Shown: one piece after another, positions 5,375-21,881 of the stretch
How positions within the stretch are numbered: position 1 is the first letter of the stretch
Layout of the letters: the number at the start of each line of letters is the position of its first letter
Source of the DNA: Microgenomates group bacterium Gr01-1014_16
GTDB lineage: Bacteria; Patescibacteriota; Microgenomatia; CAZETR01; Amesbacteraceae
Assembly: GCA_007376345.1 (NCBI GenBank)
Contig: VMGA01000010.1
Span: forward strand, 1-35,093
Length of the DNA: 35,093 nt
Reading direction: 5' to 3'
Notes under the pieces: generated by a model
Seen by the model: only the letters and a program-made list of their open reading frames with translations
What the model was told of the DNA's origin: nothing
The model's database searches: none
Made by a program: the position numbers and the translations under genes

Positions 5375-5416
5375 GCCCAGTAGTATATACCAACAAACTG
5401 TGATACACTAGCCCAA

Positions 5417-5782: not shown

Positions 5783-5818
5783 AAACTTCTAAAAAACCTT
5801 CATTATGGAATTTTTTGT

Positions 5819-5945
5819 TGAGCTGATTTTTAAAAAAGTTCGCACTGATTTTCGGGATTCACCGTAATGCTGCAGCTCGCTGCGCTCGCTTTTGGCTCCG
5901 GCTCGGCTGCGGCCTCGCCTCCGCCATTTTTTGCGCGCGCCGTGT
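5819..5945 (+). repeat. Left end of element 1 (inverted relative of the recombinase 3' end)
   Basis: Read on the minus strand this stretch resembles the 3' end of the recombinase genes: it has GCGCGCGCAAAAAA (complement at 5927-5940) and then a frame reading ISANFFKNQL, comparable to GSDYFLTDRQL in recombinase 1. Read on the plus strand it supplies the tail ELIFKKVRTDFRDSP that the recombinase would carry in the circular form. It is nearly identical to the reversed segment 12635-12743 of the internal cassette. It is therefore an attL half-site plus an imperfect terminal inverted repeat. Confidence 0.65.
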
Positions 5946-6421
5946 GCGACTGCCGTCGCACCAAGACCGAGAATTTTAAGTACGAACTGAATTTTCAAGT
6001 AACACAAGTATTTTACAACATTCCAGACAGCCCACCCACCCGAATACAAAGGGTGGCGGCGACCCCACTTCCGTTCGCAGGGCTCCCTAGGGGGACCCTT
6101 GCCCATGTTTCAGCTGTTCTAGCAACTCTTCGCAATCCCTTCCGAACTAAATGCAGTTCTACTAAGTCAGCTCACTCCAGCGGGGTATCCGCTTTTTCGC
6201 CCCCGCCTTCTTTATCCTTACCCCATCTCGGGTCCGGACGGCTTCGCGAGGACTCTCAACGGTTCGGGCCGGAGTTCTGATTCCTTAGAAAGACCCGGCC
6301 CTCACGTGGGTCGGGCCCGCTTCTTCGCAAGCCTTCAAAAATTCCAAGGGAGTTCCTGTCGCGGGCCCTCCTTTTTAGCTGGTGCTCTCCGATACTGGGG
6401 CGGGGGCGGCGGACGCCGCCA
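5946..6421 (-). other. Conserved structured noncoding block A
   Basis: No convincing reading frame. Three sub-blocks match block B of element 2: 6031-6070 (ending GGTGGCGGCGACCCCAC), 6181-6260 (GCCCCCGCC, then ACCCCATC, GGGTCCG and CGCGAGGAC) and 6367-6421 (ending GGGGCGGGGGC then GGCGGCGGACGCCGCC). GCCCCCGCC in the middle block is complementary to GGCGGGGGC in the last block, and GGGGTA (6183-6188) pairs with TACCCC; both pairings recur in block B. The orientation of any RNA is unknown; a minus-strand transcript would begin with the GGCGGCG hairpin. Confidence 0.55.
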
Positions 6422-6426
6422 CAAAA

Positions 6427-7614
6427 TTATTCTTCTGCTTCCGTTAGCTCCAAAGGCTTGATCTCTTGAAGTTCTCTCCCTGTTACTGCTTGTAGTTCAC
6501 CATACATTCCATGAGTATTGTCAATAATCTTGCGTAATTCTTTTTCCTGTCTCGACCATTTTAGATTAAACCAACGTTTTTCTTTCTCAATATCTCCTTG
6601 CAAATTATTAAATGCTTCAACTATGGCCTCTATTCTATGTGTAAATTCTACACTTCTTAAATATTGATACAAAACTTCCATTTTTTCGTTTTTGCCCACA
6701 TTAGCCAGTTTTTCAAAGTGGATATGAATTAAATCAAAGCGAAGGGCAATTGCTAGCCCTCTGGCGGACTTTATAGTTGTTATCCAAACATTTTCCCTGT
6801 AAACAAAGGTCTCAATATCCTCCGGTGGGTTGGCGACTACTAAAACCGCAAGTTGTGCTCCAGCCGCCCTTTGATCTTCTCTCAATTTCTTGAGCCATTC
6901 ATCTTTCCACTGCGCATTTTTAGACTCCCACAAGATCATTCCACACTCACGACCAAGTTTATCAACAACTGTTTGGGAAATATCTGCACCTCGTTCTCCT
7001 TTTTTAACTTCAGATACTTTGTCTTCAGGAAACTCTCTCCTTAGTATTTGTTCAAGTTCTAATTCCATGACCTCACCTTGGATTTGTTGAGATCCCTGTT
7101 CTAACTTGCGTTTTAGATCATCATTCATCTTTAATGCCTCTTGAAGCTTCTTGTCTTTTTCAGCATCTTTAAGTTGATGATTTTCTTGAGCCTCTTTGAG
7201 TGCATTGTCTCGGATCTTAACTCTTTCCTCGTCGAGCTGTCGTTGTTTTTCGATCTCAAATTTTTGTTTGGCCTCCTCCAGTTCTCGCTTCTCTTTTCTT
7301 ATTTTTAACTCTTGCTCTTCGGCTCGTTCCGCTCGTTGCTTGAGTTCAAGTATTTGCTCTTCTTTATCTTTGAGTTCCTTGGTGACACTTTCCTGAGCTT
7401 CGAGTTTTGCTTTCTCAGAAACCTGTTTTTTAGCTTCCTCAAATTCCTTTTTCTTTAACTCTTCAAATTCTTGCCTTTCGCGCTTGATTTGTTCAATTTC
7501 CCCTCGGTGTTTCAACTGCTCTTCCTTCAGTAATTTTTCTTCGAGTTCATGTTTGTAAGCATCGGTAGGCTCAAAAAGTTTCCCGCATTGTGGACATTTA
7601 ATTTGTGTGGTCAT
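6427..7614 (-). CDS. DUF2130 coiled-coil protein
   Basis: A 395-residue protein. The N-terminus has CPQCGKLFEPT, one half of a zinc-binding motif. A long charged coiled coil rich in Glu, Lys and Gln runs from about residue 20 to 185, followed by a globular C-terminal domain with ILRREFPEDKVSEVKKGERG and WESKNAQWKDEWLKKLRED. This layout matches DUF2130, whose C-terminal domain recalls restriction-endonuclease-like folds (the E-x-K in WESKNA fits, by inference). It lies 4 nt after the OLD nuclease gene and is probably translated from the same transcript. DUF2130 proteins are widespread and of unknown function; the setting here suggests a DNA-related or defence role. Confidence 0.8.
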   Translation of the reverse strand: MTTQIKCPQCGKLFEPTDAYKHELEEKLLKEEQLKHRGEIEQIKRERQEFEELKKKEFEEAKKQVSEKAKLEAQESVTKELKDKEEQILELKQRAERAEEQELKIRKEKRELEEAKQKFEIEKQRQLDEERVKIRDNALKEAQENHQLKDAEKDKKLQEALKMNDDLKRKLEQGSQQIQGEVMELELEQILRREFPEDKVSEVKKGERGADISQTVVDKLGRECGMILWESKNAQWKDEWLKKLREDQRAAGAQLAVLVVANPPEDIETFVYRENVWITTIKSARGLAIALRFDLIHIHFEKLANVGKNEKMEVLYQYLRSVEFTHRIEAIVEAFNNLQGDIEKEKRWFNLKWSRQEKELRKIIDNTHGMYGELQAVTGRELQEIKPLELTEAEE

Positions 7615-7618
7615 AAAT

Positions 7619-9226
7619 TCATGTTAAAGGAAACGCTTTGCTATTGCATGTTTGAATAGCGTCAAAAATTATTTTCATTTCATTTTCAAATTCCAATTGA
7701 GTCACTTTGCTTGCAACATCCTTTGCATAGGAAACCTTTCTATCATTAGGAATGTCATTCTTACTCTTCCGGTAAGCAGGCGGATAATATTCCTCAAGCG
7801 ATTCTGTTGTTAGTTCAAAAACTTGGTTTTTCTGAAAAAGATATGGGTATCCCTGTTTAAAAAGATCATATTTTATTTTTTGATTTTTATTGGGTTTATC
7901 AATAAGTACAACCGCTGTCTTCTTATAGATTGGATTATCAGAACCTGCCAACGGCGAAAACAATTTATGAACAGCAAGTAGAGTAGGCTCTTGTTCATCG
8001 ATATCCCCTCCTGCATAAATAATTTTTAAACCTCTGTGCGTCTCAGCATAGAACCGTTTAATTACACTGTTTATAAATTCAAATTCGCTCCTTCCCTCGA
8101 CTATCAAAAAATTTCGAGGTAATAATAAATCAGAAGGACTTCCTCCTAATAAATCGAATATCACATCTACTTTATCGACATCACCAACCTCGTTTATGTC
8201 TGTAATTCTGTTATTTTTTTCAACCTTAAATATTTTTTGATTCTCATTATTATCGACAACTAGTACAGAAGAATGTGTATTCACCAACACTTGATCTGTC
8301 TTACTAATATCAACAAGCGCCCGTTTCAATGCACGTTGGGCCGAGGGATGAAGATGTAACTCTGCCTCATCTATTAAAAACAGAAATGAACCGCCACCGA
8401 GCTGTTCCTTTCTGTAGTCCGCAAAGGCCTGGATAATTGAAAGCATAATCGCTCTTTGCATTCCATCACCTTTATCCTCAGCTTTTGTTTCAATCCCATC
8501 GTATACGGTTGTATCGAAGCTTTTAAGTAATTCATTAAAATGAGGAGGATTAACTCCAAATTTCACTCTTGTTCCATCAGGAAACTGTTTTTGAAGATAT
8601 ATTTCAACTTTAGCACCTAGTTTATTAAGTTCTTTTCTTACTTCGGAATCTTCGTTATCGAACAATTTAGCAAATTGTTTTTTGAAATCAATATAATCTT
8701 GGGAATTCTCAATAATTGCAGACAGCACGCCGGAAAGCATGACACCTATCGGGTTTTTGTCTTTGTATTTAGACACATCGTCTAGCCTTATTTTTGTATT
8801 AATATATTCGAGTTTTGGCAAAAACTCATTAATGGCCGTATCTAAACCCTGCGGGTTACCCTTATTTTCTCCATCAACGATATAAACTCTCTTATGATCA
8901 GAACTAGTCTTTTTGACAGAAAATGACCCCGAGTTACCCAGTAGATTTTTCAGTTTGGTTTTATTTGCATCAGTTTTTAACTTATTAATATCCGATTCTT
9001 CAATCCCATCAAAGAAAATTTCGACACTGACTTGATTACTCGGATCCCTATTATAATGCTCATCGTCACTTGATGAATTTGCATTAAAAAACCACTCTAT
9101 GGCTTCAAACAAGTTAGTCTTTCCATGATTATTTTGACCTACAAAAATATTAAAAGCCTTAATTTCAAGATTTTCAATTTTTCGGATGGAGCGGTAATTA
9201 TTAATGGAGACTTTTGTAATTTTCAT
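7619..9226 (-). CDS. OLD-family ATP-dependent nuclease (AAA ATPase plus TOPRIM)
   Basis: A 535-residue protein. The ABC-type ATPase part has Walker A GQNNHGKT (residues 30-37), an ABC signature-like KGDGMQRAI (252-260) and Walker B FLFLIDEAELHLHP (281-294). The TOPRIM nuclease part starts with FLIVEGRSEFEF (373-384) and includes VVLIDKPNK (about 439-447). This is the domain order of overcoming-lysogenisation-defect (OLD) nucleases, several of which act in phage defence; the Gabija protein GajA is one member. No UvrD-like GajB partner is adjacent. Its neighbours are a GIY-YIG protein upstream and DUF2130 downstream on the same strand, so a three-gene module is plausible. The substrate is unknown. 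Confidence 0.85.
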   Translation of the reverse strand: MKITKVSINNYRSIRKIENLEIKAFNIFVGQNNHGKTNLFEAIEWFFNANSSSDDEHYNRDPSNQVSVEIFFDGIEESDINKLKTDANKTKLKNLLGNSGSFSVKKTSSDHKRVYIVDGENKGNPQGLDTAINEFLPKLEYINTKIRLDDVSKYKDKNPIGVMLSGVLSAIIENSQDYIDFKKQFAKLFDNEDSEVRKELNKLGAKVEIYLQKQFPDGTRVKFGVNPPHFNELLKSFDTTVYDGIETKAEDKGDGMQRAIMLSIIQAFADYRKEQLGGGSFLFLIDEAELHLHPSAQRALKRALVDISKTDQVLVNTHSSVLVVDNNENQKIFKVEKNNRITDINEVGDVDKVDVIFDLLGGSPSDLLLPRNFLIVEGRSEFEFINSVIKRFYAETHRGLKIIYAGGDIDEQEPTLLAVHKLFSPLAGSDNPIYKKTAVVLIDKPNKNQKIKYDLFKQGYPYLFQKNQVFELTTESLEEYYPPAYRKSKNDIPNDRKVSYAKDVASKVTQLEFENEMKIIFDAIQTCNSKAFPLT

Positions 9227-9252
9227 ATATGTTCGACAAAATAACCTTGAAA

Positions 9253-9552
9253 TTATTTATCTCCGCACATCGGATTAAGTTGTAACCGTAAATAAGATTC
9301 AATATGCAGTCTTATTTGTTGATTAGCCTCTCGATAAATTGCGACGTAAATGGTCTGGCTATTGGCATTTCTTTGCCAGCAAGACCGTCTTTCGTGCCCA
9401 GAAATCCGTGTGCCTAATTGATCGGTTTCTCCAACATCCAACCATCGCTCGTTAGTGTAGATGGCGTAAACCCCGGCCACATCATTAAACGCTGTCGATA
9501 GCGGATAACCGGTTTCAAGTTGATACCCGGCAATATTTGTTGTCATAATCAC
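9253..9552 (-). CDS. Small GIY-YIG nuclease-like protein
   Basis: A 99-residue protein consisting almost entirely of a GIY-YIG-like domain: GVYAIYTNERWLDVGETDQL carries the GIY and YIG positions (GVY, and DVG in place of YVG), followed by the conserved Arg in LGTRISGHERR and a late acidic residue in HIESYLRLQLNP that would be the metal ligand. It is the first gene of the minus-strand set with the OLD nuclease and DUF2130 genes and is divergent from the LexA-like repressor, with 65 bp between the starts. It may be a DNA nuclease used with the OLD protein; that is inference. The start could also be the ATG three codons in (MTTNIAG). Confidence 0.6.
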   Translation of the reverse strand: MIMTTNIAGYQLETGYPLSTAFNDVAGVYAIYTNERWLDVGETDQLGTRISGHERRSCWQRNANSQTIYVAIYREANQQIRLHIESYLRLQLNPMCGDK

Positions 9553-9568
9553 TTACTCCTTCTCCCTC

Positions 9569-9598
9569 TTGACAAAGTTAGTAAAAAGGTAGTAAATG
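9569..9598 (+). promoter_or_regulatory. Candidate sigma70 promoter for the LexA-like gene
   Basis: TTGACA at 9569-9574 and TAAATG at 9593-9598, 18 nt apart, lie in the 65-bp divergent gap. The spacer has a partial direct repeat (TTAGTAAA and GTAGTAAA), and an alternative -10 TATACT lies at 9599-9604. These could be operator half-sites for the LexA-like repressor, which would then control both directions. Confidence 0.45.
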
Positions 9599-9617
9599 TA
9601 TACTAGTACTCCTATTT

Positions 9618-10220
9618 ATGAATGTCAACATGGAAAAGCCAATAACCCCAAAGCAAAAGATAGTTTTCGAATTTATCAAATCTTTCTCCAAAAAAAACGG
9701 GTTTGCTCCATCACTTCAGGAAATTGCCGATTATCTCAATAAATCTTTAAGTACGGCACAGCATTTCGTGGCGGAGTTACATAAGAAAGGCTATCTACAA
9801 AAGAGCGAAAACGTCGCTAGGAGTATTAGCACGCTGGGGGATACCTTCAAACAAATTTTTAAGCTCGGGTATATTGCCGCCGGTAATCCGATAGAGCCGA
9901 TCGAAAACCCAGAGCCGATCGACGTGCCCACATCGTTTCTGGAAAAGCCGGGTAACTATTACGCTCTTGAAGTTAAAGGCAACAGTATGATTGAAGACAA
10001 CATATTAGACGGTGACACCGTGGTAATTAGGCACACACAGATAGCAGAAGACGGCGATAGAATAGTTGCAATAACGGAAGACGGTGCGACCCTTAAAGTT
10101 TTTAGAAATAAAAACGGCAAAACGTACTTAGAGCCTAGAAACAATAATTTGAGTGCTATTTATCCAAAGCAATTGGAAATCCGAGGAAAATATTGTGGTT
10201 TAATACGAAAAGGAGAATAA
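9618..10220 (+). CDS. LexA-like self-cleaving repressor (S24 peptidase)
   Basis: A 200-residue protein with the LexA layout. The winged-helix DNA-binding domain occupies about residues 8-75 (TPKQKIVFEFIKSF, then PSLQEIADYLNKSLSTAQ). The scissile Ala-Gly is at 88-89 in GYIAAGNPI. The peptidase domain has Ser123 in VKGNSM and Lys160 in ATLKVF. All residues needed for RecA-stimulated self-cleavage are present. It heads the Vsr-methyltransferase gene set and is divergent from the OLD nuclease set. It may be the element's own damage-responsive regulator and not the host SOS regulator, because it is carried inside the mobile element. The ATG at 9630 is an alternative start. Confidence 0.88.
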   Translation: MNVNMEKPITPKQKIVFEFIKSFSKKNGFAPSLQEIADYLNKSLSTAQHFVAELHKKGYLQKSENVARSISTLGDTFKQIFKLGYIAAGNPIEPIENPEPIDVPTSFLEKPGNYYALEVKGNSMIEDNILDGDTVVIRHTQIAEDGDRIVAITEDGATLKVFRNKNGKTYLEPRNNNLSAIYPKQLEIRGKYCGLIRKGE

Positions 10221-10243
10221 AATGATTATACCTGCCGACTTTT

Positions 10244-10648
10244 ATGGGAGATATATTCACAAAGGAAAAAAGAAGCGAAATAATGTCTCGGATTACCGGG
10301 AAAAATACGACACCGGAACTTACAGTAAGAAAAATTCTCCGAAAAATGGGGTACAAGTACCGCTTAAACGCCCACAACTTGCCGGGAAAACCGGATGTGG
10401 TTATTCATTCGGAGAAACTTGTTATTTTTGTCAACGGCTGCTTTTGGCATAACCATAAGGGGTGTAAAAGAAGCTCGTTACCGAAAACTAATACTGAATT
10501 TTGGAAAGACAAGATTAATAAAAATGTTGAAAAACAAAAACAAAGCATTAAAGCACTTAAAAAATTAGGTTGGAAGATTTTAGTGCTTTGGCAGTGTAAA
10601 ATTAACAACAATAATGCATTATTGAAAACTTTGTCTCAAAACCTATGA
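10244..10648 (+). CDS. vsr: Very-short-patch repair endonuclease
   Basis: A 134-residue Vsr endonuclease. MGDIFTKEKRSEIMSRITGK matches the family N-terminus, followed by NTTPELTVRKILRKMG, the catalytic region LPGKPDVV with the metal-binding Asp, and IFVNGCFWHNHKGCK with zinc-binding Cys and His. Vsr nicks beside T:G mismatches that arise when 5-methylcytosine deaminates, so it protects sites modified by the adjacent methyltransferase. The stop overlaps the methyltransferase start by ATGA (10645-10648), so the two are translationally coupled. An AGGAG ahead of an ATG at 10222 leads into an unrelated frame; the start at 10244 is chosen from family length. Confidence 0.93.
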   Translation: MGDIFTKEKRSEIMSRITGKNTTPELTVRKILRKMGYKYRLNAHNLPGKPDVVIHSEKLVIFVNGCFWHNHKGCKRSSLPKTNTEFWKDKINKNVEKQKQSIKALKKLGWKILVLWQCKINNNNALLKTLSQNL

Positions 10649-11775
10649 AAAAAAATAAAAAAACACACTCCAATAAACCCGTCTTGATAGATTTGTTTGC
10701 CGGGGCTGGTGGGTTATCTATCGGATTTGAACAAGCCGGATTCAAATTAGTCGCAGCCACAGATTGGGATCATTGGTCTTGCGAAACATTGAGAGCCAAT
10801 CATAGAAATGTTTTTGTGGCCGAAGGGGATATAAACGAAGTAGACCTGAATGACTTTGCCGGTAAACTTTCTGCCGATGAAGTCGACCTAATAGTAGGCG
10901 GACCGCCTTGTCAAGGGTTTAGCGCGTTGGGGAAGAGATTGAAAAGTGACCCTCGGAATCAGCTTTGGCAACAGTATATGAGATTCGTTGAGTATTTCAA
11001 CCCGAAAGTTTTCTTAATGGAAAACGTTCCCGAACTTCTAAAGAGTGAGGAATATGTTCAAATTAAAAGAGCCGCGGAAAAACTTGGGTACCAAGTAAGG
11101 GAAAAGATATTATTTGCGCCTGATTACGGTGTGCCCCAAAAAAGAAGAAGGGCCATAATTTTGGGGAGCAGAATAGGTGAACCTAAATTTCCGAAACCCA
11201 CCCACTTGTTACCCGGCCAATTAACCTTGGATAACTACAGGTGTGTCCCGTGGAAAAGTGTCAGAGATGTTATAGGGGATCTCCCGTTAGAGCCGGACGG
11301 AAACAACTGGCATGTTGGAAGAAACCCTACTGAAAAATCTCTTAAAAGGTATAAGTCTGTCCCTCCCGGAGGAAATCGTTTTAATCTGCCGCAAGATCTT
11401 ATGCCTGATTGTTGGAAAAGGAAAAAAACCGGCTCAACAGACGTTTTCGGCAGGTTAGAGTGGGACAAGCCGTCGCTAACGATCCGAACGGAATTTTTCA
11501 AACCAGAAAAAGGAAGATATCTTCACCCGGAAGCTCACAGGCCGATAACTATCAGGGAAGCAGCCAGACTGCAAACTATTCCAGATAGCTACGTATTGAA
11601 GGGATCACATCTGGAGGTGGCTAAACAAATAGGAAATGCCGTACCGTGCGAATTGGCTAGAAACATTGGAGAGGAATTGCTAAAACTCTTTAGCACCGAT
11701 TCGGATAGCATCAAGGAGAAGAGAATTTACCGATCGACCGGTTTTGAGAGACTTCTCGCTTACCAACAACCTTAA
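10645..11775 (+). CDS. DNA (cytosine-5) methyltransferase
   Basis: A 376-residue C5-methyltransferase with all main motifs: I DLFAGAGGLSIGF (residues 16-28, SAM binding), IV GGPPCQGFS with catalytic Cys89, VI MENVPE (125-130), VIII QKRRR, the target recognition region at about 190-300, IX REAARLQTIPD and X GNAVP. It transfers a methyl group to cytosine in a specific DNA sequence that cannot be read from the protein. It is coupled to Vsr upstream and convergent with an HNH endonuclease gene that overlaps its last 96 bp. With the HNH and XRE genes it forms a type II restriction-modification set. Confidence 0.95.
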   Translation: MKKNKKTHSNKPVLIDLFAGAGGLSIGFEQAGFKLVAATDWDHWSCETLRANHRNVFVAEGDINEVDLNDFAGKLSADEVDLIVGGPPCQGFSALGKRLKSDPRNQLWQQYMRFVEYFNPKVFLMENVPELLKSEEYVQIKRAAEKLGYQVREKILFAPDYGVPQKRRRAIILGSRIGEPKFPKPTHLLPGQLTLDNYRCVPWKSVRDVIGDLPLEPDGNNWHVGRNPTEKSLKRYKSVPPGGNRFNLPQDLMPDCWKRKKTGSTDVFGRLEWDKPSLTIRTEFFKPEKGRYLHPEAHRPITIREAARLQTIPDSYVLKGSHLEVAKQIGNAVPCELARNIGEELLKLFSTDSDSIKEKRIYRSTGFERLLAYQQP

Positions 11776-12279
11776 ATCGTCTGGAAGGTTTACTGAAACA
11801 ATTTTGTTTTTAATCGTTTCCGGATAAGCGGCAAGAGATTTTTTTCCAGCATTACATCTGCTACACAAAGTCCACAAATTTTCTTCCACAGTTTTTCCTT
11901 GTTGCCTTAATGGAGTTATATGATCAACCTCCAGATTCACTACATGCCCGTCATCATATTTTTCTCCTCCCTTGTGGCCGCATAGTTGGCACACATAGCG
12001 GTCACGCTCCAAGACTTTCAGCCTTAACTTCAGGTTAATATATCCGTCTGTCTGAACACCTTTCTTATTAACAGACTTCAAGGTATATCCGCTAGGGCTA
12101 CTGCTATAACGTATATCCCAACCCTCCGCTCTTAATTCTCTTATCCTGCGTGCGTAATTATGTTGCCCCGACACTTCAATCAGCTTCTCGTTCGGAACAA
12201 GCTTCCTCATATTTTCATACAACACGTCGAGTAATTTTTGCCAAACTCCGTTTTTATCGCTTTTGGGAACTCTTTTCAT
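11680..12279 (-). CDS. HNH endonuclease, likely the restriction enzyme of the type II system
   Basis: A 199-residue protein. The central HNH domain shows YVCQLCG (Cys97, Cys100), LEVDHITPLRQQG (Asp119, His120), EENLWTLCSRCN (Asn134, Cys139, Cys142), that is a beta-beta-alpha-metal nuclease with a structural zinc site. The N-terminal part, with SGQHNYARRIRELRAEGWDI, is a winged-helix-like segment seen in HNH restriction endonucleases. It starts 1 nt after the XRE controller gene and is convergent with the methyltransferase, overlapping its 3' end by 96 bp. This is the common C-R arrangement of controlled type II systems. The C-terminal ~40 residues (VSVNLPDDLRLLVSEKSLK) resemble a small ribbon-helix-helix-like tail. 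Confidence 0.8.
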   Translation of the reverse strand: MKRVPKSDKNGVWQKLLDVLYENMRKLVPNEKLIEVSGQHNYARRIRELRAEGWDIRYSSSPSGYTLKSVNKKGVQTDGYINLKLRLKVLERDRYVCQLCGHKGGEKYDDGHVVNLEVDHITPLRQQGKTVEENLWTLCSRCNAGKKSLAAYPETIKNKIVSVNLPDDLRLLVSEKSLKTGRSVNSLLLDAIRIGAKEF

Positions 12280-12280
12280 A

Positions 12281-12493
12281 TCATATTCCCTTAAAGAGTT
12301 CCGATAACTCCAGTCCTAAAACTTTTGCAATCTTCTCAATATTTTCCAGCGAAACGTTACGTGTCCCTCGTTCCAAATCGCTTACATAAGTCCTATGCAG
12401 ACCGGATCTGAAAGCCAACTCCTCCTGGGATAGCCCCTTAGCTTTTCTCAATTGTCTCAGCCTCTTACCATATTTTCTTTTTATGTCGATCAT
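12281..12493 (-). CDS. XRE-family controller (C) protein
   Basis: A 70-residue protein that is essentially one helix-turn-helix domain: KRLRQLRKAKGLSQEELAFR, then SGLHRTYVSDLERGTRNVS and KIAKVLGLELSELF. Size and sequence match the C proteins of type II restriction-modification systems, which bind C-boxes to activate and later restrain their own gene and the restriction gene. A C-box-like sequence lies 44-63 bp upstream of its start, and the HNH endonuclease gene follows after 1 nt, both as expected. The transcript may have a very short leader. Confidence 0.88.
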   Translation of the reverse strand: MIDIKRKYGKRLRQLRKAKGLSQEELAFRSGLHRTYVSDLERGTRNVSLENIEKIAKVLGLELSELFKGI

Positions 12494-12536
12494 AAGTTAC
12501 TGTTACTTATTGACTACATTTTACTTTTTGTATATT

Positions 12537-12556
12537 CTTAGTCTACAGACTATAAG
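12537..12556 (-). promoter_or_regulatory. C-box operator for the controller protein
   Basis: On the minus strand the site reads CTTATAGTCTGTAGACTAAG, with the paired half-sites AGTC-TGTA-GACT and an outer ACTTATAGT. This closely resembles the C-boxes of known controller proteins (ACTxATAGTC-x4-GACT). A -10-like TAAAAT lies 16 nt downstream of TAGACT, in a position to be activated by bound C protein. Confidence 0.75.
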
Positions 12557-12588
12557 TGACGTATTGTATCAAAATATATCATTTATTG

Positions 12589-12863
12589 AAAATTTTTGCG
12601 TTTTCTTTTTGAGAGAACGAGTCCGAGCCGATGTTTCGCGGAGGCGAGGCGACAGCCGAGCCGGAGCCAAAAGCGAGCGCAGCGAGCTGCAGCATTACGG
12701 TGAATCCCGAAAATCAGTGCGAACTTTTTTAAAAATCAGCTCAGAAAGTGAGTGGTCGGTGGCCCGCAGGGCCACAGTCTGCGCGGTGGGGGTCACGCAG
12801 AGCCTAGCAAAGCCCTTTTTGTAGTTCACCCTGAGTTGTACAAAAAGAAAACGCAAAAATTTT
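12589..12863. repeat. Cassette 1: 23-bp inverted repeat enclosing an inverted attP copy of element 1
   Basis: Perfect inverted repeats at 12589-12611 and 12841-12863 (core TTTTTGCGTTTTCTTTTTG on the left) flank 229 bp and end 18 bp before the recombinase ATG. From right to left on the minus strand the interior reads: the recombinase 3' end from CAACTCAGGG through ATDHSLS (12744-12838), the junction at 12742-12743, the left end of element 1 (12635-12742), and a fragment GAAACATCGGCTCGGACT that again matches the recombinase gene (about 12617-12635). The frame across the junction encodes an alternative recombinase tail, ELIFKKVRTDFRDSP. Confidence 0.8.
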
Positions 12864-12881
12864 AAGTAAAACTAACTGCCT

Positions 12882-14558
12882 ATGAAATACATTGCTTATT
12901 GTAGAAAAAGTACTGACGAAAAGGATCGCCAAATCCTTAGTATTGAGTCCCAAATCCAGGAGATTCGGGACTTTACTCAAAGACAGCATTTAGAGATTAT
13001 AGAATTTGCAGTCGAAGCCAAAACCGCTAAAATTCCCGGTCGGGAAGTCTTTGAGCAAGTGTTAAGGAGAATTGAGAAAGGAGAGGCTCAAGGCGTAGTT
13101 TCCTGGCACCCGGATCGATTGGCCAGAAATAGTATTGACGGCGGCAAGATAATCTATCTTCTGGATACCGGTAAACTAATTGACCTTAAATTCCCATCGT
13201 TTTGGTTTGAAAATTCACCTCAAGGCAAGTTTGTATTAAATATCGCTTTCGGCCAATCTAAATACTATGTGGACAACTTATCCGAGAATGTCAAACGTGG
13301 TTTAAAACAACTTCTGCGCAATGGAATCTGGCCAGCCAAACCGCCCTACGGCTATATTTATAATAAATCTGCTAAGAAGCACGAGATTGACCCGATAAAA
13401 TCCAAACTCATCAAAAAGGCTTTCCACAAGTATGCCATTGCAGAATGGAATCAAACGCAAATATCCAAAGTATTGTTTGAACAAGGTTACAAACGGAAAA
13501 ACGGTAAATCACTTAGCTTAAATGAAGTTGTCCGTTTTCTAACCAACAAATTCTATATCGGTCTGTTTAAATACAATAGTGAATGGTACGAGGGAACTCA
13601 CGACCAATTTGTCCCCAAGGATCTTTTTGATGAAGTCCAAAGAAAACTCAACCAAAACAAACGCAACTTTGCCAACCGTAAATTCAACTTTTTAGGGCTA
13701 ATTAAATGTGGTGAATGTGGAGCGAGTATTACCGCTGAACACAAATTCAAGTTTTACAAACGCACTCGTGGCAAAGTTGAGTATATTTACTACCGGTGTA
13801 CTAAAAAGTTGAGACATTGTGGCCAAAAGTACATTCAGGAACCGAATCTCGAGCAACAACTTCGCAAAACCATTTCTGATGTGGCTTTACCCCCAACTTG
13901 GGCGGATCAGTGGATGAAATGGTTGGAAAGAGATGAGTTAATCGAAGAACAAACTGCCAGTGGCAAAGTAATAAGGTTACAGAGTTTAGTGAAAACACAC
14001 GATGAAAAGTTGAACACACTTTTAGACGGATATCTGGATGGAACGATTGAGTCCGAAACCTACAAGAGCAAGAAGAATCAATTGTTTGAGGAAAAGGTCA
14101 AGCTTCACGAAGAAATAATCAAACTTGAGAGTCAGGGTTCCACTTGGCTCGGACCAATGCGAGAATTTATACAAACCGCGAAGAATGGGGACAAAATGGC
14201 GCGCGCAAAAAATAATGGCGAAGAATTAGCAATCTTCGCCAGAAACATCGGCTCGGACTACTTTTTAACTGACCGGCAACTCAGGGTGAACTACAAAAAG
14301 GGCTTTGCTAGGCTCTGCGTGACCCCCACCGCGCAGACTGTGGCCCTGCGGGCCACCGACCACTCACTTTCTTCGTTGGCGGCCGCCAGTTTCTGCCATT
14401 CCCATCCGGATCCGCAGTACGTGCTGGCCAGCCCCCACAGCGTCTCGCCTCTGGTTATCTCGTGGGTGACCACCTTCAGCTCCGCTTTCGGCAAATTCAA
14501 TTTCATGCCGATCTCCAACAAACCAGGATTAGACAGAGCATCTTTATTTTCGGCATAA
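12882..14558 (+). CDS. Large serine recombinase 1
   Basis: A 558-residue frame. The resolvase domain begins MKYIAYCRKSTDE with nucleophile Ser10 and contains HPDRLARNSIDGG. The recombinase domain (about residues 150-250) has KPPYGYIYN. A zinc ribbon follows: KCGECGAS and YYRCTKKLRHCGQ. A coiled-coil region then runs to about 460. This is the domain order of phage-type and transposon-type large serine recombinases. The native tail probably ends soon after NYKKGFARLCVTPTAQT; from SLAAASFCHSH onward the frame runs antisense through the host LysM gene, because the right end of the element lies inside the coding region (14372). In the circular form the tail would be ELIFKKVRTDFRDSP. It should integrate and excise element 1. 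Confidence 0.88.
   Translation: MKYIAYCRKSTDEKDRQILSIESQIQEIRDFTQRQHLEIIEFAVEAKTAKIPGREVFEQVLRRIEKGEAQGVVSWHPDRLARNSIDGGKIIYLLDTGKLIDLKFPSFWFENSPQGKFVLNIAFGQSKYYVDNLSENVKRGLKQLLRNGIWPAKPPYGYIYNKSAKKHEIDPIKSKLIKKAFHKYAIAEWNQTQISKVLFEQGYKRKNGKSLSLNEVVRFLTNKFYIGLFKYNSEWYEGTHDQFVPKDLFDEVQRKLNQNKRNFANRKFNFLGLIKCGECGASITAEHKFKFYKRTRGKVEYIYYRCTKKLRHCGQKYIQEPNLEQQLRKTISDVALPPTWADQWMKWLERDELIEEQTASGKVIRLQSLVKTHDEKLNTLLDGYLDGTIESETYKSKKNQLFEEKVKLHEEIIKLESQGSTWLGPMREFIQTAKNGDKMARAKNNGEELAIFARNIGSDYFLTDRQLRVNYKKGFARLCVTPTAQTVALRATDHSLSSLAAASFCHSHPDPQYVLASPHSVSPLVISWVTTFSSAFGKFNFMPISNKPGLDRASLFSA
14199..14372 (+). repeat. Right end of element 1, inside the recombinase gene, with internal hairpin
   Basis: GCGCGCGCAAAAAA at 14199-14212 is the inverted counterpart of 5927-5940 at the left end. 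A 9-bp inverted repeat TGGCGAAGA (14216-14224) / TCTTCGCCA (14233-14241) follows. The segment 14278-14371 is repeated in reverse inside cassette 1, and homology stops at CACTCACTTTCT (14361-14372), which marks the crossover. Confidence 0.65.
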
Positions 14559-14818: not shown

Positions 14819-14892
14819 TTTGTATTCAAAACCTCCGTTCCAGGCAGATCTTTTGGCTGAATATATATCTCTTCACTCCATTTTGCAATGGG

Positions 14893-14964
14893 CGGGGTCT
14901 GTACGAAAAAGTTCGAACCTGCTTTACCTCGTAATGTCGCAGCTCCCTTTTTTACGCGCGCGCT
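14893..14964 (+). repeat. Left end of element 2
   Basis: Begins at the CGGG core. On the minus strand it carries GCGCGCGCGTAAAAAA (complement at 14948-14963), which matches recombinase 2 at 21635-21648, followed by a frame reading GKAGSNFFVQTP, similar to GKNIGSNYFLHQRQ of recombinase 2. It is repeated without mismatches that I can see, in reverse, at about 20111-20172 inside cassette 2. Confidence 0.65.
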
Positions 14965-15397
14965 TGTCCCGCTTCGGCGGGACAGAACCCACGAACCAAT
15001 TAACGAAAACCATTATACTGCATTCCGACTCAACCCACCCGCCCCCGGATATGGAAGGCGGCGACCCCACGCCTCCCGCCGCAGTCGCCCTCGGTCAGCG
15101 TCTGCGGGCGGTGGCGGATCCCCGTTCGACTTGCTCACGGCTGCCACTTCTTTACAACCTTTCACAGCTTTCACAGGTCAAAGTACATTTCCACCTCATA
15201 GGTAAAAGCGATGGTCGGCGTGGGGTGATTCCGCTTTCGCCCCCGCCTTTTATATCGTACCCCATCCTCGGGTCCGCACGGCTCCGCGAGGACACTCCAC
15301 GGCTCACTGCGGCTCGCTGGGGTCGTCCCGCCTAATTCGGCGGGACTCCTTTTAGCAGCTAATCCCCGAATCTGGGGCGGGGGCGGCGGACGCCGCC
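14965..15397 (-). other. Conserved structured noncoding block B
   Basis: No credible reading frame. It starts with a strong hairpin TGTCCCGC-TTCG-GCGGGACA (14965-14984). Three sub-blocks match block A: 15031-15070 (AAGGCGGCGACCCCAC), 15221-15300 (GGGGTGATTCCGC, GCCCCCGCC, ACCCCATCCTCGGGTCCG, CGCGAGGAC) and 15345-15397 (GGGGCGGGGGC, GGCGGCGGACGCCGCC). Complementary pairs GCCCCCGCC/GGCGGGGGC and TGGGGT/ACCCCA are kept in both copies while intervening sequence differs. A further hairpin GTCCCGCC/GGCGGGAC lies near 15325-15345 and has no exact partner in block A. Confidence 0.55.
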
Positions 15398-15466
15398 AAT
15401 TTATAAATCGGATTCAAACTAATACCTTCTGTGAGCCCCTGTGGTGCCGTTTACCGGCCATTTTCC

Positions 15467-15494
15467 TTGACAACACTACAGATAGTGGTACACT
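15467..15494 (+). promoter_or_regulatory. Sigma70-like promoter for the HicA-like gene
   Basis: TTGACA (15467-15472) and TACACT (15489-15494) are 16 nt apart. The spacer holds a short inverted repeat CACTA-CAGA-TAGTG that could be an operator. It is the only clear promoter in the 200 nt between block B and the gene. Confidence 0.6.
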
Positions 15495-15548
15495 TTATTT
15501 AACAACAAAGTATCTCAAAAGATACATAGACAAATTAGGGATTGATCC

Positions 15549-15578
15549 GCCCCGGTTTGCAGAAAGACTGGGGTTTTT
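15549..15578 (+). terminator. Possible intrinsic terminator or attenuator in the leader
   Basis: CCCCGGTTT and AAGACTGGGG form a stem, followed by a run of five T, about 20 nt before the start at 15595. Because it lies between the promoter and the gene, it could act as an attenuator in the leader. Confidence 0.4.
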
Positions 15579-15594
15579 ATTAACTATTTGAATT

Positions 15595-15837
15595 ATGTCA
15601 ACTTTAGGCAATAGACTTATCAAATTATTTACGAATCTAAAATGGACAACTCCCAGAGTGGGTTTGGCAAATCATGGGAGAAAGTGGTGTCCGCCACCAG
15701 GTGTAACTACAAGCTATCCGGGGCAACAACCATTTATCTTGATGCCACGAAAAGTCAACGAGAATGTTATTAAATACATCATCCAAGAGCTAAAGAGGTT
15801 CGGGTATGCCAAGAAAGATCTAGAGGACGAACTCTAA
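15595..15837 (+). CDS. HicA-like small protein
   Basis: An 80-residue basic protein. The C-terminal half, FILMPRKVNENVIKYIIQEL followed by KRFGYAKKDLEDEL, aligns in pattern with the end of HicA mRNA interferases (TVPxHxxELxxGTLRxILKQAGLSxxEF). NHGRKW upstream may correspond to the catalytic-His strand. The resemblance is weak in the first 45 residues, so function is not certain. It overlaps the end of a HicB-like gene by 4 bp but in convergent orientation, unlike classical hicAB operons. It is preceded by a promoter and a possible attenuator. Confidence 0.45.
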   Translation: MSTLGNRLIKLFTNLKWTTPRVGLANHGRKWCPPPGVTTSYPGQQPFILMPRKVNENVIKYIIQELKRFGYAKKDLEDEL

Positions 15838-16199
15838 GCGGTTACAAGTCTTGCTCGAAAAACTGGCTCAGGTGGATATACCACTGTTCCATCGTCTAAT
15901 TTCAAAGTAAGCGTATCAGGAAGCTTCCTCGCGCGGTATCTGGGAACGTCAAAATAGGTAAGAATAGAGTCAAAAATAGCCTCTCTAAGTTCTGATTCGT
16001 TTTCTCCACTTGCTATTAGACCAGGGTAATCTACCGATTCTACCCAAATTAAACCCCGATCTCGGTGAGTCTTAAATTGAAGATCCAGTTTAAATGGGGG
16101 TAAGGAAGGGGGTCGATTTCGCAAGATATCAAACAAAACGAAATCCTTCAAATCTAACAATAAATCTATCAATTTATATTTTACTATACTCATATTCAT
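15834..16199 (-). CDS. HicB-like antitoxin-fold protein
   Basis: A 121-residue protein. GLIWVESVDYPGLIASGENE followed by SELREAIFDSILTYF is the HicB partial RNase H-like core (the pattern W(V/A)xxxxYPGLxxxGxxxxEAxxNxxEAI). The N-terminal ~50 residues are an extra basic segment. No clear DNA-binding domain is seen at the C-terminus, which ends PPEPVFRARLVTA. In HicAB systems HicB neutralises HicA. Here the two genes converge with a 4-bp overlap, so pairing is inferred from proximity only. Confidence 0.6.
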   Translation of the reverse strand: MNMSIVKYKLIDLLLDLKDFVLFDILRNRPPSLPPFKLDLQFKTHRDRGLIWVESVDYPGLIASGENESELREAIFDSILTYFDVPRYRARKLPDTLTLKLDDGTVVYPPEPVFRARLVTA

Positions 16200-16246
16200 A
16201 TTAATTCACATTATAATACTACGTCACTAGTATCGGGCCAGGAAGT

Positions 16247-16363
16247 TTGGTTGTCAATCGTCTTCTGTGTGCAGTCAGACAACTGATCGAAAAAGAGCCA
16301 TTGTACTGGGATTATATACCTGATGAGTATTTTAGTCCAGATTACCAAAAAAATAAACCCTAA
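16247..16363 (+). pseudogene. Possible small ORF or gene remnant
   Basis: A 38-codon frame with a TTG start: LVVNRLLCAVRQLIEKEPLY followed by WDYIPDEYFSPDYQK. The composition looks protein-like, and the frame stays open about 16 codons further upstream without a better start. I do not recognise it. It fills much of the 220-bp gap between the HicB-like gene and the rRNA methyltransferase gene and may be a fragment of a lost gene. Confidence 0.3.
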
Positions 16364-16420
16364 CACCTGGAATCTCAAAGAATAACGGTGAAAGAGTATC
16401 GCGAAGTGTAAAATTAAGCC

Positions 16421-17293
16421 ATGGCAGCAACTTTGTGGCATTCGCAAAACTTCATTGGTAATCCCAGTCTCGTCTCCAAACTACTTGGAATGACGGATAT
16501 AAACTCGTCTGATTTCGTGATTGAAATTGGTCCCGGAAAGGGCGCAATAACTGGACAGTTGGTCAGATCGGCTGGTTCAGTGTTGGCAATTGAAGCTGAC
16601 TTGAATCTCGCGAACAAACTTAACATCCAGAATGTCAAGGTAATTCAAGGAGATTTCTTAAAACATGCTCTCCCAGATCAAGTATACAAAGTCGTCGCAA
16701 ATATCCCCTTCAACTTAACCGCCGAAATAATTAGGAAGTTGTTTTTGAGCGATGAGAACAAGCCTGAGGCTGCTTTTCTAATCATGCAGAATGAAGCAGC
16801 CCAAAAGTTTGCCGGAGTACCCAAAGCTACCCTTTCTTCTATTTTGATTCAAGTTGAGTACGACACCAGGATACTGACTAAAATCGACAAAGGAGAATTT
16901 GTTCCCACTTCCAAAGTCGACGCCGCCTTTATTTCGTTTATAAAAAGGGGTCAACCATTGGTTAACCGGACATATTCTCGAGAATTCGCAGACTTTGTTG
17001 CCTACGGCTATAAATATTTTCGATGGAATGAGCCGTTGATAAGCGTCTTTGATAGATTATTTACCAATTCCCAGAAAGAAAATCTGGAGAAAAAATTTCA
17101 ATTAACCGGCCAAAAAGTTTCCGACTTAGAAGTGTTTAAATGGATCGGACTATTTAATGATCTGGTGGATCAAGTGGCAACAGAAAAGTGGGATATATTC
17201 CGTGGAACAATGGAAAAATTAACTGAAGAACAATCACGGCTACAAAAACGACACAAAACTCAAACAAATCTTGGGAAAACTAATAAATCGTAG
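16421..17293 (+). CDS. rRNA adenine N6-dimethyltransferase, Erm/KsgA family
   Basis: A 290-residue SAM-dependent methyltransferase. HSQNFIGNPSLVSKLL leads into motif I EIGPGKGAIT (residues 35-44), the acidic motif II IEAD (57-60), GDFL (77-80) and catalytic motif IV NIPFNLT (94-100). NIPF, not NLPY, is closer to Erm proteins (23S rRNA) than to host RsmA/KsgA (16S rRNA). The ~70-residue C-terminal domain is rich in Lys and Gln. It is carried inside mobile element 2, which also favours an accessory Erm-like gene over the housekeeping enzyme. The target and any effect on macrolide susceptibility are inferred from family only. Alternative: a diverged KsgA. Confidence 0.8.
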   Translation: MAATLWHSQNFIGNPSLVSKLLGMTDINSSDFVIEIGPGKGAITGQLVRSAGSVLAIEADLNLANKLNIQNVKVIQGDFLKHALPDQVYKVVANIPFNLTAEIIRKLFLSDENKPEAAFLIMQNEAAQKFAGVPKATLSSILIQVEYDTRILTKIDKGEFVPTSKVDAAFISFIKRGQPLVNRTYSREFADFVAYGYKYFRWNEPLISVFDRLFTNSQKENLEKKFQLTGQKVSDLEVFKWIGLFNDLVDQVATEKWDIFRGTMEKLTEEQSRLQKRHKTQTNLGKTNKS

Positions 17294-17316
17294 TAAACTT
17301 TTTATATCTACACTGG

Positions 17317-18003
17317 ATGAAAACCCGCCTACCAAAATCAAAAGGGGATTGGAAAACTGCAGTCGCTGTTGGTGCTACAGCGTTAATAGCCTCAGGTGGA
17401 TTATGGTGGATTGGTGATAGGAATAAAATTCCTGTTCCGGCCTACAAAATGCTCCGGGTCATAGACGGCGACACCTTTGAAACTACCGAACGTCAATTAA
17501 TCCGACTCTCCGGCGTCAACGCTCCGGAATTGGCAAATTGTTATGGCCAAGAGGCTAAAAGCACATTACAAAAATTAATTACTAACAAAAATCTTTATCT
17601 CAAAGTTATTTACCGCGACGGCAGCAATCGCCTGATCAGCCACGTTTATACCGATAAAGGGTTAGTTGCAACTCAGCTCGCTCGGGAAGGCACTGTATAC
17701 GACTTCGGTAGGGGTCTAGATGACCCTGAATTTGACCAAGCTGTAGATTATGCAAAGTCACACAAAATCGGAATTTTCAGCCCCAAATGCACACAGACAA
17801 TCAATACTGCCAATCCCAAGTGTGCCATCAAAGGCAATGTTCGCACTCCAGACTCCAAGCTATATCGTTTTCCGGGATGTGGAAATTACACAACCACGTT
17901 AGTTCAATTGTCATTAGACGATCGCTGGTTTTGTACCGAAAAAGAAGCTCAATCAGCCGGTTTTTCCAAAGGTTCAGACTGTTTTAACCAGAGTTGGAAA
18001 TAA
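17317..18003 (+). CDS. Thermonuclease-like (SNase) protein with Cys-rich C-terminal domain
   Basis: A 228-residue protein with an N-terminal hydrophobic segment (about residues 14-32) that may export or anchor it. The staphylococcal nuclease domain shows VIDGDTFE (Asp50, Asp52), IRLSGVNAPE (Arg63, Glu71) and an Arg in DGSNRLISHVY. These are the metal-binding and catalytic positions, so it is probably an active Ca-dependent nuclease outside the cytoplasm. After residue ~160 a second region, KLYRFPGCGNYTTTLV then DRWFCTEKEAQSAGF, is a small Cys-containing domain often found after SNase in bacteria. It starts 24 nt after the Erm-like gene, so the two may share a transcript. Confidence 0.82.
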   Translation: MKTRLPKSKGDWKTAVAVGATALIASGGLWWIGDRNKIPVPAYKMLRVIDGDTFETTERQLIRLSGVNAPELANCYGQEAKSTLQKLITNKNLYLKVIYRDGSNRLISHVYTDKGLVATQLAREGTVYDFGRGLDDPEFDQAVDYAKSHKIGIFSPKCTQTINTANPKCAIKGNVRTPDSKLYRFPGCGNYTTTLVQLSLDDRWFCTEKEAQSAGFSKGSDCFNQSWK

Positions 18004-18009
18004 GTAGAA

Positions 18010-18211
18010 TTATCTGACAGGAAAATTAATGTGATAATGCGCAAAAACCAAATAGGTGTCGTATCTGATTTCTTCTTCAATTACTTGATCCATAACCACC
18101 AGAAAGTCCAGTGCCTAAAATTTTCTTAATTTCTAATTTCATTCTAAGGTCTATTTTACTCTTTAACCACCATATAAATCGAGGAACCATCCAATTTATG
18201 CTCTGTCTCAT
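18010..18211 (-). pseudogene. Possible frameshifted small gene downstream of the deacetylase gene
   Basis: Two overlapping short frames on the minus strand look protein-like: an ATG at 18211 gives MRQSINWMVPRFIWWLKSKI and on to a stop at 18077, and in another frame VMDQVIEEEIRYDTYLVFAH ends at 18010. Together they could be the remnant of one small gene that followed the ChbG-like gene. I do not recognise a family. Apart from this the 246-bp gap holds nothing I can identify. Confidence 0.25.
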
Positions 18212-18249
18212 TTCTATCGCAACTCACGCTTAGCAAGGAATACAAAGTA

Positions 18250-19011
18250 TCAAATCTCACAGGAAGGAACCAATTGTAAGTTTTCTTCCTCTACCAGGCT
18301 TAGGAAATAGTCCGAAAGTAAAAAGTTAACGTCGTCTAGTCGCTCTTGGATAAATGAAGTTAAACCCTTTTCAAAATCAGTTGAATACCCCGGATGAAAA
18401 AATATCTCAATTGATTTTATTTGTCCTAATTGTTTGAGAAAAGCTAAATCCTGTTTATAAGCGGTGTATATGTCCTTGGGAAAACCATATCTAAAACCAA
18501 GAATTGCGTCGGCGGTTCTGCCAATGTTTAAGCCTTTTGGAGTCTCATCGGCTTTAAGAGTGAAATGGCCAAGAGTGTTAGAGCGCTCACCCCTGCGAGC
18601 ATAACAGATATTCCTGACACAATAATCGGCAATATACCTGACAATTTTTGAATTTAATGAGATTTGTTTGTGCCCAATGATGTGTTTAGGGGTAAAACCG
18701 ATTAGTTGTTCAAATAGACGAACCTCTTCCTCAAAAGCAGCGATTAATTGCTCGGGAGTCCAGTTCAGTAAGATATCATCGTAATCTTTTCCTCTCAAAA
18801 CCTTGCCATCCTTGGAAATTCGACAAAGTGAGAAATGTAGTCCCACGTTTTGCACGCTGTTGTTTTTGATGTAATTAACAGCGTTCATGGAACCATAACA
18901 ATCAACCATGAGGGAAAGTTCAGTTATCCGACCTTTTTCATAAGCCTCAATTATGGCTCTGTTAGTGTTTTCAGTAAATCCGAAGTCGTCTGCCGTTGTT
19001 AGTGTCTTCAT
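18250..19011 (-). CDS. ChbG/YdjC-like carbohydrate deacetylase
   Basis: A 253-residue TIM-barrel-like deacetylase. Metal-binding motifs are visible: TADDFGFTENTNRAI (Asp8, Asp9), NVGLHFSL (His), IIGHKQISLN (His) and IEIFFHPGYS (His). Family members remove N-acetyl groups from chito-oligosaccharides or related sugars in the cytoplasm, and many lie near lipid or surface-glycan genes. The start overlaps the stop of the EamA transporter gene by ATGA (19008-19011), so the pair is translationally coupled; the transporter may move the deacetylase substrate or product. The substrate is not predictable from sequence. Confidence 0.85.
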   Translation of the reverse strand: MKTLTTADDFGFTENTNRAIIEAYEKGRITELSLMVDCYGSMNAVNYIKNNSVQNVGLHFSLCRISKDGKVLRGKDYDDILLNWTPEQLIAAFEEEVRLFEQLIGFTPKHIIGHKQISLNSKIVRYIADYCVRNICYARRGERSNTLGHFTLKADETPKGLNIGRTADAILGFRYGFPKDIYTAYKQDLAFLKQLGQIKSIEIFFHPGYSTDFEKGLTSFIQERLDDVNFLLSDYFLSLVEEENLQLVPSCEI

Positions 19012-19928
19012 GTGTTGTTTTTGGCCTCCACCTTATTCATGAGAATTACTGAAGCTACAATCAACAAACCACCTAAAATTTCTTTTAATGCCGGAGTCTC
19101 TGAAAAAACAATTAGTCCAATCAAAACCGCAAAGGCCGACTCTAGAGTCAAAATATTACTTGCGTGTACAGCTTCTACTTTTTGGAATCCATACTGGGAA
19201 AGAAAATTGTTTAGGACATTGAAGAAGCCTGATGCCAAGACAGCAATAATAATACCCAAACTCCAGCCACTTGACGGTAATGACTCTCCTGCCAAAATTG
19301 AAGCTAAAAATAATATTATTGAACCGATTAATAAAATTAGCGACGTAATTTCTTTGTTTGTCAGTAAGTTGGAGTGCCATTTTCGAGTAACATAAGCAAA
19401 AGAAAAGAAAACCGCGGATATGAGAGCGTAAAAGTCTCCTTTTACCCACGACAATAAGTTTGAATAGTCCTGAGCCGAAATCAGCATTACCCCACCAAAA
19501 GCCAGAATAATTAACAGAACCTTTTTAATTGTCAGTTTTTCCTTGAATAGTAAAAAGCCGAAAAATGCCGTTAGAGGAAGAGAACCGATAAATGAAACAT
19601 TGCTGTATTTGGTAAGTAGTAATGCCCTAGTGAACAGGTTGACACCAAGTATGTAAAACGAGATAGACCTAAGAGTTAACAAAGACCATTCTTTTAGAGT
19701 TATTCTTCTAAGTTTTGACAAATCTAGTGACTTGTTAAAAAAAATTAAACTCATCAGAAATGCAGCAAACATTCGAAGATAAATTTGTTGAAATATAGCA
19801 AAAGACGTGTTGAGGTATCTCACAAAAATACCCATAATTGCATAAATGAAAGCCAGCCACACCAGAACAATTACCCCTTTGTTATGGTCAGACAAAACTT
19901 TTAAGCGATTAATGATCTTGTTACTCAT
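19008..19928 (-). CDS. EamA/DMT-family transporter
   Basis: A 306-residue integral membrane protein with ten hydrophobic segments in two repeats of five, the EamA (drug/metabolite transporter) layout. Typical features are GVIVLVWLAFIYAIMGIFVR in helix 1, the end of repeat one GFLLFKEKLTIKKVLLIILA and the matching LIVFSETPALKEILGGLLIV near the C-terminus. The substrate is unknown. It is the first gene of a two-gene minus-strand operon with the ChbG-like deacetylase. Its upstream region (19929-20012) borders the recombinase 2 cassette. Confidence 0.88.
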   Translation of the reverse strand: MSNKIINRLKVLSDHNKGVIVLVWLAFIYAIMGIFVRYLNTSFAIFQQIYLRMFAAFLMSLIFFNKSLDLSKLRRITLKEWSLLTLRSISFYILGVNLFTRALLLTKYSNVSFIGSLPLTAFFGFLLFKEKLTIKKVLLIILAFGGVMLISAQDYSNLLSWVKGDFYALISAVFFSFAYVTRKWHSNLLTNKEITSLILLIGSIILFLASILAGESLPSSGWSLGIIIAVLASGFFNVLNNFLSQYGFQKVEAVHASNILTLESAFAVLIGLIVFSETPALKEILGGLLIVASVILMNKVEAKNNT

Positions 19929-20012
19929 TGGATCATTTTATGCTTTCGATTATCAAATTGGAATAACTATTGACTTCGGGTTAGATTAGGTAATAATTAA
20001 ATAAGTACCTTA

Positions 20013-20308: not shown

Positions 20309-20320
20309 AAGAGACTGACC

Positions 20321-21847: not shown

Positions 21848-21881
21848 CAGGGAAGCGCGCTAACCGCTACGCTACGAGCCC
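21809..21881 (-). tRNA. tRNA-Asp (anticodon GTC), integration site of element 2
   Basis: On the minus strand acceptor GGGCTCG pairs with CGGGCCC (discriminator G at 21809). The anticodon stem CTTCC/GGAAG encloses CTGTCAA, anticodon GTC. The T arm is GCCGG-TTCGAAT-CCGGT. A CCA is not fully encoded. The element joins exactly at the 3' end, keeping the tRNA intact. Confidence 0.95.

Follow-up and report, generated by a model that had tools for sequence, protein, structure and literature searches.

We report that two integrative elements in a 35,093-nucleotide stretch of DNA from Microgenomates group bacterium Gr01-1014_16 (assembly GCA_007376345.1, contig VMGA01000010.1, positions 1 to 35,093; hereafter the window) each contain a cassette that precedes a large serine recombinase (LSR) gene and in which both of the element's own ends are copied, joined together and inverted. 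The joined ends are the junction, or attP attachment site, that a circular form of the element would have. This inverted joined-ends cassette is a real and widely conserved DNA part, retained within the integrated element in several bacterial phyla, as a reading made from the letters of the window alone (the sequence-only reading) had proposed for the window itself. We did not find an internal inverted junction copy with DNA-level end pairing described in the open literature searched; a prior description elsewhere is possible, and as far as that literature goes the cassette is a previously undescribed part of a large mobile-element family in Patescibacteria, a group in which gene exchange is poorly understood.

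The inverted junction cassette in the two elements

Element 1 (8.55 kb; 5819-14372, plus strand) is bounded by the two arms that its cassette copies. The right end arm, which we call P (14277-14372, 96 nt, plus strand), is copied inverted at 12743-12838 (P^, minus strand, where ^ denotes the reverse complement) with 100% identity, and the left end arm, P' (5819-5924, 106 nt, plus strand), is copied inverted at 12638-12743 (P'^, minus strand) with 98% identity. Read on the minus strand, 12638-12838 thus opens with the final 96 nt of the right end and passes into the initial 106 nt of the left, CACTTTCT running directly into GAGCTGATT. The sequence-only reading had described this arrangement, and its joined-ends junction stands, with the small correction that the copies share one base (12743), the core at which they meet in both the sequence and the computed fold. 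The whole cassette (12589-12863) is enclosed, as had also been claimed, by a perfect inverted repeat of 23/23 bp, formed by the stem arms IRL (12589-12611, plus strand) and IRR (12841-12863, minus strand). The LSR gene follows at 12882-14372 on the plus strand, and a candidate promoter (TTGACT-17-TATTCT, 12510-12538, plus strand, a consensus match only) reads through the cassette into it.

Element 2 (6.9 kb; 14892-21812, plus strand) repeats this layout, with a right edge that coincides with the 3' end of a tRNA-Asp gene (21808-21881, minus strand, ARAGORN), its target site (attB). Its cassette (20013-20308) precedes an LSR gene at 20321-21812 on the plus strand, whose frame runs to 21847. The left end arm P' (14892-14948, plus strand) is copied inverted with 100% identity at 20117-20173 (minus strand), and the right end arm P (21710-21812, plus strand) with 95% identity at 20169-20271 (minus strand); the two copies share a 5-nt core, and the flanking inverted repeat (20013-20035/20286-20308) matches at 22/23 bp. 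Self-BLAST E-values for the four arms of the two elements range from 1e-23 to 1e-47, which excludes a chance origin.

In both elements the 3' end of the recombinase gene is itself the right arm P. Both recombinases are classical LSRs, with Resolvase, Recombinase and zinc beta-ribbon domains (PF00239, PF07508, PF13408) above cut-off. The insertion site of element 1 is not at a tRNA. Its recombinase frame (12882-14558) crosses the element edge and continues in host DNA, so the C-terminus of the protein differs between the circular and the integrated form.

Occurrence among homologous loci

The sequence-only reading had called for a survey of homologous loci, and 80 of these (numbered with the prefix L) were drawn from a collection of GTDB-representative contigs; nine are cut too short to judge, which leaves 71. 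An inverted copy of the LSR-proximal end P lies upstream of the LSR gene in 66 of the 71, and a direct-orientation copy in none (0/71). The carriers include Microgenomates, Parcubacteria, Saccharibacteria and Verrucomicrobia, and the P copy is usually about 103 nt long in Microgenomates and about 137 in Saccharibacteria. Three further such elements occur in the source genome, on contigs C50, C44 and C27, two of them seen in part; the C44 and C27 contigs terminate inside the cassette, as expected where repeats break assemblies. An inverted copy of the opposite end, P', was also found in 36 elements, a count that takes in those of the window and of C50, at a distance of 2.4-9.6 kb (median element size 4.0 kb, with flanks limited to 10 kb). 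In 31 of these 36 the two end copies overlap by a core of 1-10 nt, mostly 4-7 nt, and the remaining five are short BLAST matches. The right edge falls at a tRNA 3' end in 50 of 69 loci, covering 10 isotypes.

The position of the cassette just before the recombinase gene, which had been taken as the rule, is usual and not universal. A gene intervenes in L048, L060, L064, L075, L083, L098 and L112, and that in L098 lies on the opposite strand. The predicted promoter is 3' of the cassette in Saccharibacteria and 5' of it in many other loci.

No inverted copy was found at distant LSRs (27-40% identity) of related genomes, nor in five phage LSR records, four from small human faecal phages and one from a Paenibacillus phage. 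Viral contigs gave no match, and phage and plasmid records yielded distant LSRs only. In a tree, which was used only for the spread of the trait among related LSRs and in which L096 and L023 sit on suspiciously long branches, perhaps because of translation frame errors, the cassette-bearing LSRs are spread over many Patescibacteria lineages and Verrucomicrobia, and the distant, cassette-less ones are mostly grouped apart. An assembly artefact was rejected on the grounds that the layout is present in complete chromosomes (L083 and L091 in CP011210.1, and a shorter, 93% copy, L089, in CP055307.1) and inside long contigs. Chance or low complexity was likewise rejected on the BLAST results and the direct-orientation control.

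Concerted change and pairing at the DNA level

Identity between cassette and ends is mostly 97-100% over about 100 nt per side, and mismatches occur at an even rate of about 1-3% for some 90 nt in both directions. An LSR dimer contacts about 50 bp of attP, or about 25 bp per half-site (PMC3783163), and the identity is therefore not confined to the recombinase footprint. The copies change in concert: both agree within each element at 516 variable sites, against 54.

Further parts accompany the arms. On the sense strand the order is core-P'-y^ ... cargo ... promoter-[pseudoknot]-IRL-hp'-x^-P'^-core-P^-IRR-recombinase ... y-hp-x-15 nt-P-core. The y:y^ pair is an inverted repeat of 12-31 bp near the two element ends, found in 30 loci with many compensating differences (mean score 35.6, against 15.2 for shuffled sequence); in element 1 it is formed by ATTTTTTGCGCGCGC at the left end (5926-5940, plus strand) and GCGCGCGCAAAAAAT within the 3' end of the recombinase gene (14199-14213, plus strand). 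A predicted hairpin inside the coding region, hp (14216-14241, plus strand), recurs with compensating changes in 49 loci (score 15.3 against 9.3), and hairpins are also conserved in P and P'. The cassette stem IRL:IRR, 12-62 bp long in 48 loci, is kept despite differing sequence (L103). All of these inverted-repeat pairs are conserved without conservation of their sequence. Motif x, a 17-nt sequence with a GGCTCGAAC core, co-varies between gene and cassette; in element 1 the copy in the cassette (x^, 12620-12637, minus strand) matches the one in the gene (14242-14259, plus strand) at 18/18 positions. The motif is permuted, preceding P at the element end and following P' in the cassette.

In RNA helices G-U can substitute for G-C or A-U, and A-C cannot. 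When internal non-Watson-Crick positions were counted alike in three sets of stems, the GU:AC ratio was 45:2 in tRNA acceptor stems, 34:3 in a leader pseudoknot upstream of the same recombinase genes and 43:50 in all end and cassette stems together, among about 3200 pairs. The end and cassette stems are hence under selection as DNA, with no preference for either strand, and the leader pseudoknot is RNA.

A possible role as an internal splint

We tentatively propose that the cassette is an internal splint or template with which attP is rebuilt, and the element circularised, after uptake of single-stranded DNA (ssDNA) by natural transformation. The integrated element would become single-stranded, most plausibly as transforming DNA entering a naturally competent cell, where P' would anneal to P'^ and P to P^ on one continuous strand. 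The two ends would then meet exactly at the core, with the flanking host DNA left as flaps; y:y^ would draw the ends together, and x would span the junction that y:y^ closes. Trimming of the flaps and ligation by host enzymes, or synthesis from the P end with the cassette as template, might yield a circle with an intact attP, and second-strand synthesis would allow the LSR to integrate this circle into a tRNA 3' end. Such a cycle would dispense with excision by the LSR in the donor, and perhaps with a directionality factor too.

Several observations are consistent with this proposal. The invariable inversion of the cassette (66 loci, against 0 in direct orientation) makes it complementary, within a single strand, to the left and the right end alike. 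In a computed DNA fold of the element 1 ends with the cassette, 5819-5924 pairs with 12743-12638 and 14277-14371 with 12838-12744; the ends abut exactly, 5819 opposite 12743 and 14371 opposite 12744, and the host flanks are unpaired with the cassette. Uptake of ssDNA delivers either strand, which matches the absence of strand bias in the stems. The permutation of motif x fits pairing around a junction closed by y:y^, and the small size of the elements (2.4-9.6 kb where both ends were found, within flanks of up to 10 kb) can be counted in favour of a splint. Genes for ComEC and DprA are present in the source genome; natural competence in Saccharibacteria operates through ComEC, and com genes are a conserved feature of the Candidate Phyla Radiation (PMC10633639). 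Among the three roles offered by the sequence-only reading, preservation of an unsplit attP comes closest to the model that the evidence best supports, in which attP is remade on a template or splint.

A number of points weigh against the splint. The circle, the ssDNA intermediate and the transformation of these elements are all unobserved, and the joining of the ends by flap trimming or by extension is hypothetical. In most loci the cassette stands between the promoter and the recombinase gene, a position that a splint would not require. Pairing of y:y^ and x alongside both arms is pseudoknotted and falls outside the computed fold. Equal numbers of G-U and A-C are also expected of double-stranded DNA sites or cruciforms, and the evidence for competence concerns Patescibacteria, among carriers that also include Verrucomicrobia. 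One locus (L063) has no cassette, and in two (L085, L094) the cassette has diverged from its own ends; these three elements are possibly inactive.

Other explanations must be weighed on the same evidence. We regard it as rather unlikely that the cassette is an operator, that is, an attP copy bound by the LSR before the recombinase operon, through which the integrase would repress or sense itself once the real attP is split by integration. The placement between promoter and gene in most loci speaks for such a role, the regulator of the sequence-only reading, which is a live rival, and negative autoregulation is known for integrases with an att site overlapping their promoter (KplE1 intS; PMC2951348). 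However, an operator calls for about 25 nt per side and not for uniform identity over about 100, it leaves y:y^, the hairpins and the invariable inverted orientation unexplained, and it sits poorly with L098 and L112, where genes separate cassette from recombinase gene, and with the Saccharibacteria, where the predicted promoter comes after the cassette. Given its usual placement, the cassette may nonetheless act as an operator alongside a splint. An inversion switch appears quite improbable: P and P^, as inverted repeats of about 100 bp, flank the recombinase gene, and homologous or site-specific inversion would turn the gene away from its promoter with both junctions preserved by construction. 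In L092 the recombinase gene is indeed flipped, its 5' end adjoining tRNA-Trp, and its close relative L098 has the usual order at the same tRNA-Trp site, but this is one flipped case among about 70 loci, and the switch leaves the P' half, y:y^ and x unaccounted for. To a similarly low probability we assign a reserve attP, a second intact site that would allow renewed recombination, whether to reach new tRNA sites, to shuffle cassettes or to shed cargo. The locus L036 (about 5070-6640), ordered host-core-P'-x-stem arm-recombinase gene-P-core-host, resembles a product of this kind, with the inverted cassette turned left end of a cargo-less element; yet it is the single such product, recombination of attP with other tRNA attB sites would delete or invert segments of the chromosome, and neither 100-nt arms nor paired stems are required. 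What L036 and the L092/L098 isomers do indicate is that cassette halves recombine, but rarely.

It is more doubtful still that the cassette is a functionless by-product, in which RecA, acting between the inverted repeats, has kept the copies of an ancestral duplication alike. On a circle, long perfect repeats would be expected to undergo mutual conversion, and concerted evolution is what we see; but the cassette is kept in 66 of 71 loci across phyla, conversion would be inefficient over stretches as short as a 17-nt x or 20-bp stems, and the stems covary without sequence conservation. The related suggestion of the sequence-only reading, an origin by recombination with a circular copy, fails to account for retention in about 93% of loci or for the conserved flanking repeats and motif x. 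Least probable is an RNA mechanism, with the cassette forming a leader RNA that is antisense to the joined ends and serves as a bridge or regulator. The cassette does lie in the leader at many loci, and its closed stem with a hairpin resembles a structured RNA, but its stems lack the wobble signature that the real RNAs of the same loci display, and it has no match in Rfam; the bridge and leader-RNA model was dropped on these two grounds. Two further routes were set aside. Homologous recombination of the cassette with the ends was rejected on paper as a means of excision, as inverted repeats would merely flip each half, and direct use by the LSR of a folded ssDNA attP, in the manner of CTXphi, was judged unlikely, as double-strand exchange would break the chromosome.

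If the splint is nevertheless the correct reading, integrated copies released from dead cells might close into circles again once inside a competent recipient and integrate there with no prior excision from the donor genome, and we hold it possible, again tentatively, that the life cycle of these elements is built around natural transformation. This would explain the spread, by DNA uptake, of elements that have neither conjugation nor phage genes, and it would add a route to a circular substrate that bypasses excision. Competent laboratory bacteria would allow a direct test of the splint hypothesis.

Relation to known systems and target recognition

The present elements share with LSR elements and phages of the A118 and phiC31 type the Resolvase, Recombinase and Zn-ribbon domains and an att core of a few bp, but a second, inverted attP inside the element is not described for those. 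LSR elements excise with the help of a recombination directionality factor, a kind of protein that sequence does not reveal, and none was identified here. Integron attC sites and CTXphi attP are folded ssDNA recombination sites. As in the present elements, structure is conserved there over sequence, with a link to ssDNA and natural transformation (for attC, PMC2727003 and PMC8191803). They are, however, short self-folding hairpins used on one strand by tyrosine recombinases, whereas in the present elements the far-apart left and right ends would both anneal to an internal copy as third partner, and neither strand is favoured. In IS110 elements a bridge RNA works with a DEDD recombinase and has a part complementary to both element ends. 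Complementarity to both ends is common to the two systems; in ours the wobble test indicates DNA and recombination falls to a serine LSR, which sets it apart from bridge-RNA elements. An att sequence adjoins the integrase promoter in autoregulated integrases such as KplE1 intS (PMC2951348), but there it is attL itself, and here the joined junction in full is present as an additional, inverted copy.

In 13 of 17 scorable loci a zinc-domain-like TTCGAAC motif is set back from the core by 3-5 bp more in attP than in the tRNA attB, and in three others an earlier TTCG was picked, the offset by eye being about 4; the reported offset of the LSR zinc-domain motif between attP and attB is 5 bp (PMC3783163). 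The motif, as found in the tRNA T-arm, is carried by P' and can be followed in the attR and attL of many loci (element 2, L009, L050 and L083). This suggests that the LSRs recognise the conserved tRNA T-arm and 3' end, and they appear to target at least 10 tRNA isotypes, a property of interest for genome integration tools.

Additional features of the loci

The leader pseudoknot, of the H type, is conserved with strong covariation in 22 loci of Microgenomates and Saccharibacteria, where the recombinase transcript has its predicted 5' end. Its 3' edge lies at about -353 relative to the recombinase gene in L094, -337 in L052, -344 in L057 and -32 in both L110 and L112. It has no match in Rfam and is probably a new regulatory RNA. 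The larger elements have in addition, close to their left end, a conserved non-coding region of about 400 nt (5995-6430 and 15000-15410 in the window, both minus strand; 6800-7260 in L012; also L091, L051, L080, L043 and L096), without a match in Rfam. Its long-range pairing on the minus strand includes G-U pairs, and we consider it a candidate large non-coding RNA.

In three Verrucomicrobia loci (L100, L104, L107), at or near tRNA-Val, a perfect inverted repeat flanks an AbrB-like gene together with the recombinase; it measures 344 bp in L107 and is cut by contig ends in L100 and L104. The cargo of element 1 (6427-12279) resembles a defence set, with an OLD-type ATPase, a C5 methylase, Vsr, an HNH nuclease, a LexA-like regulator and DUF2130.
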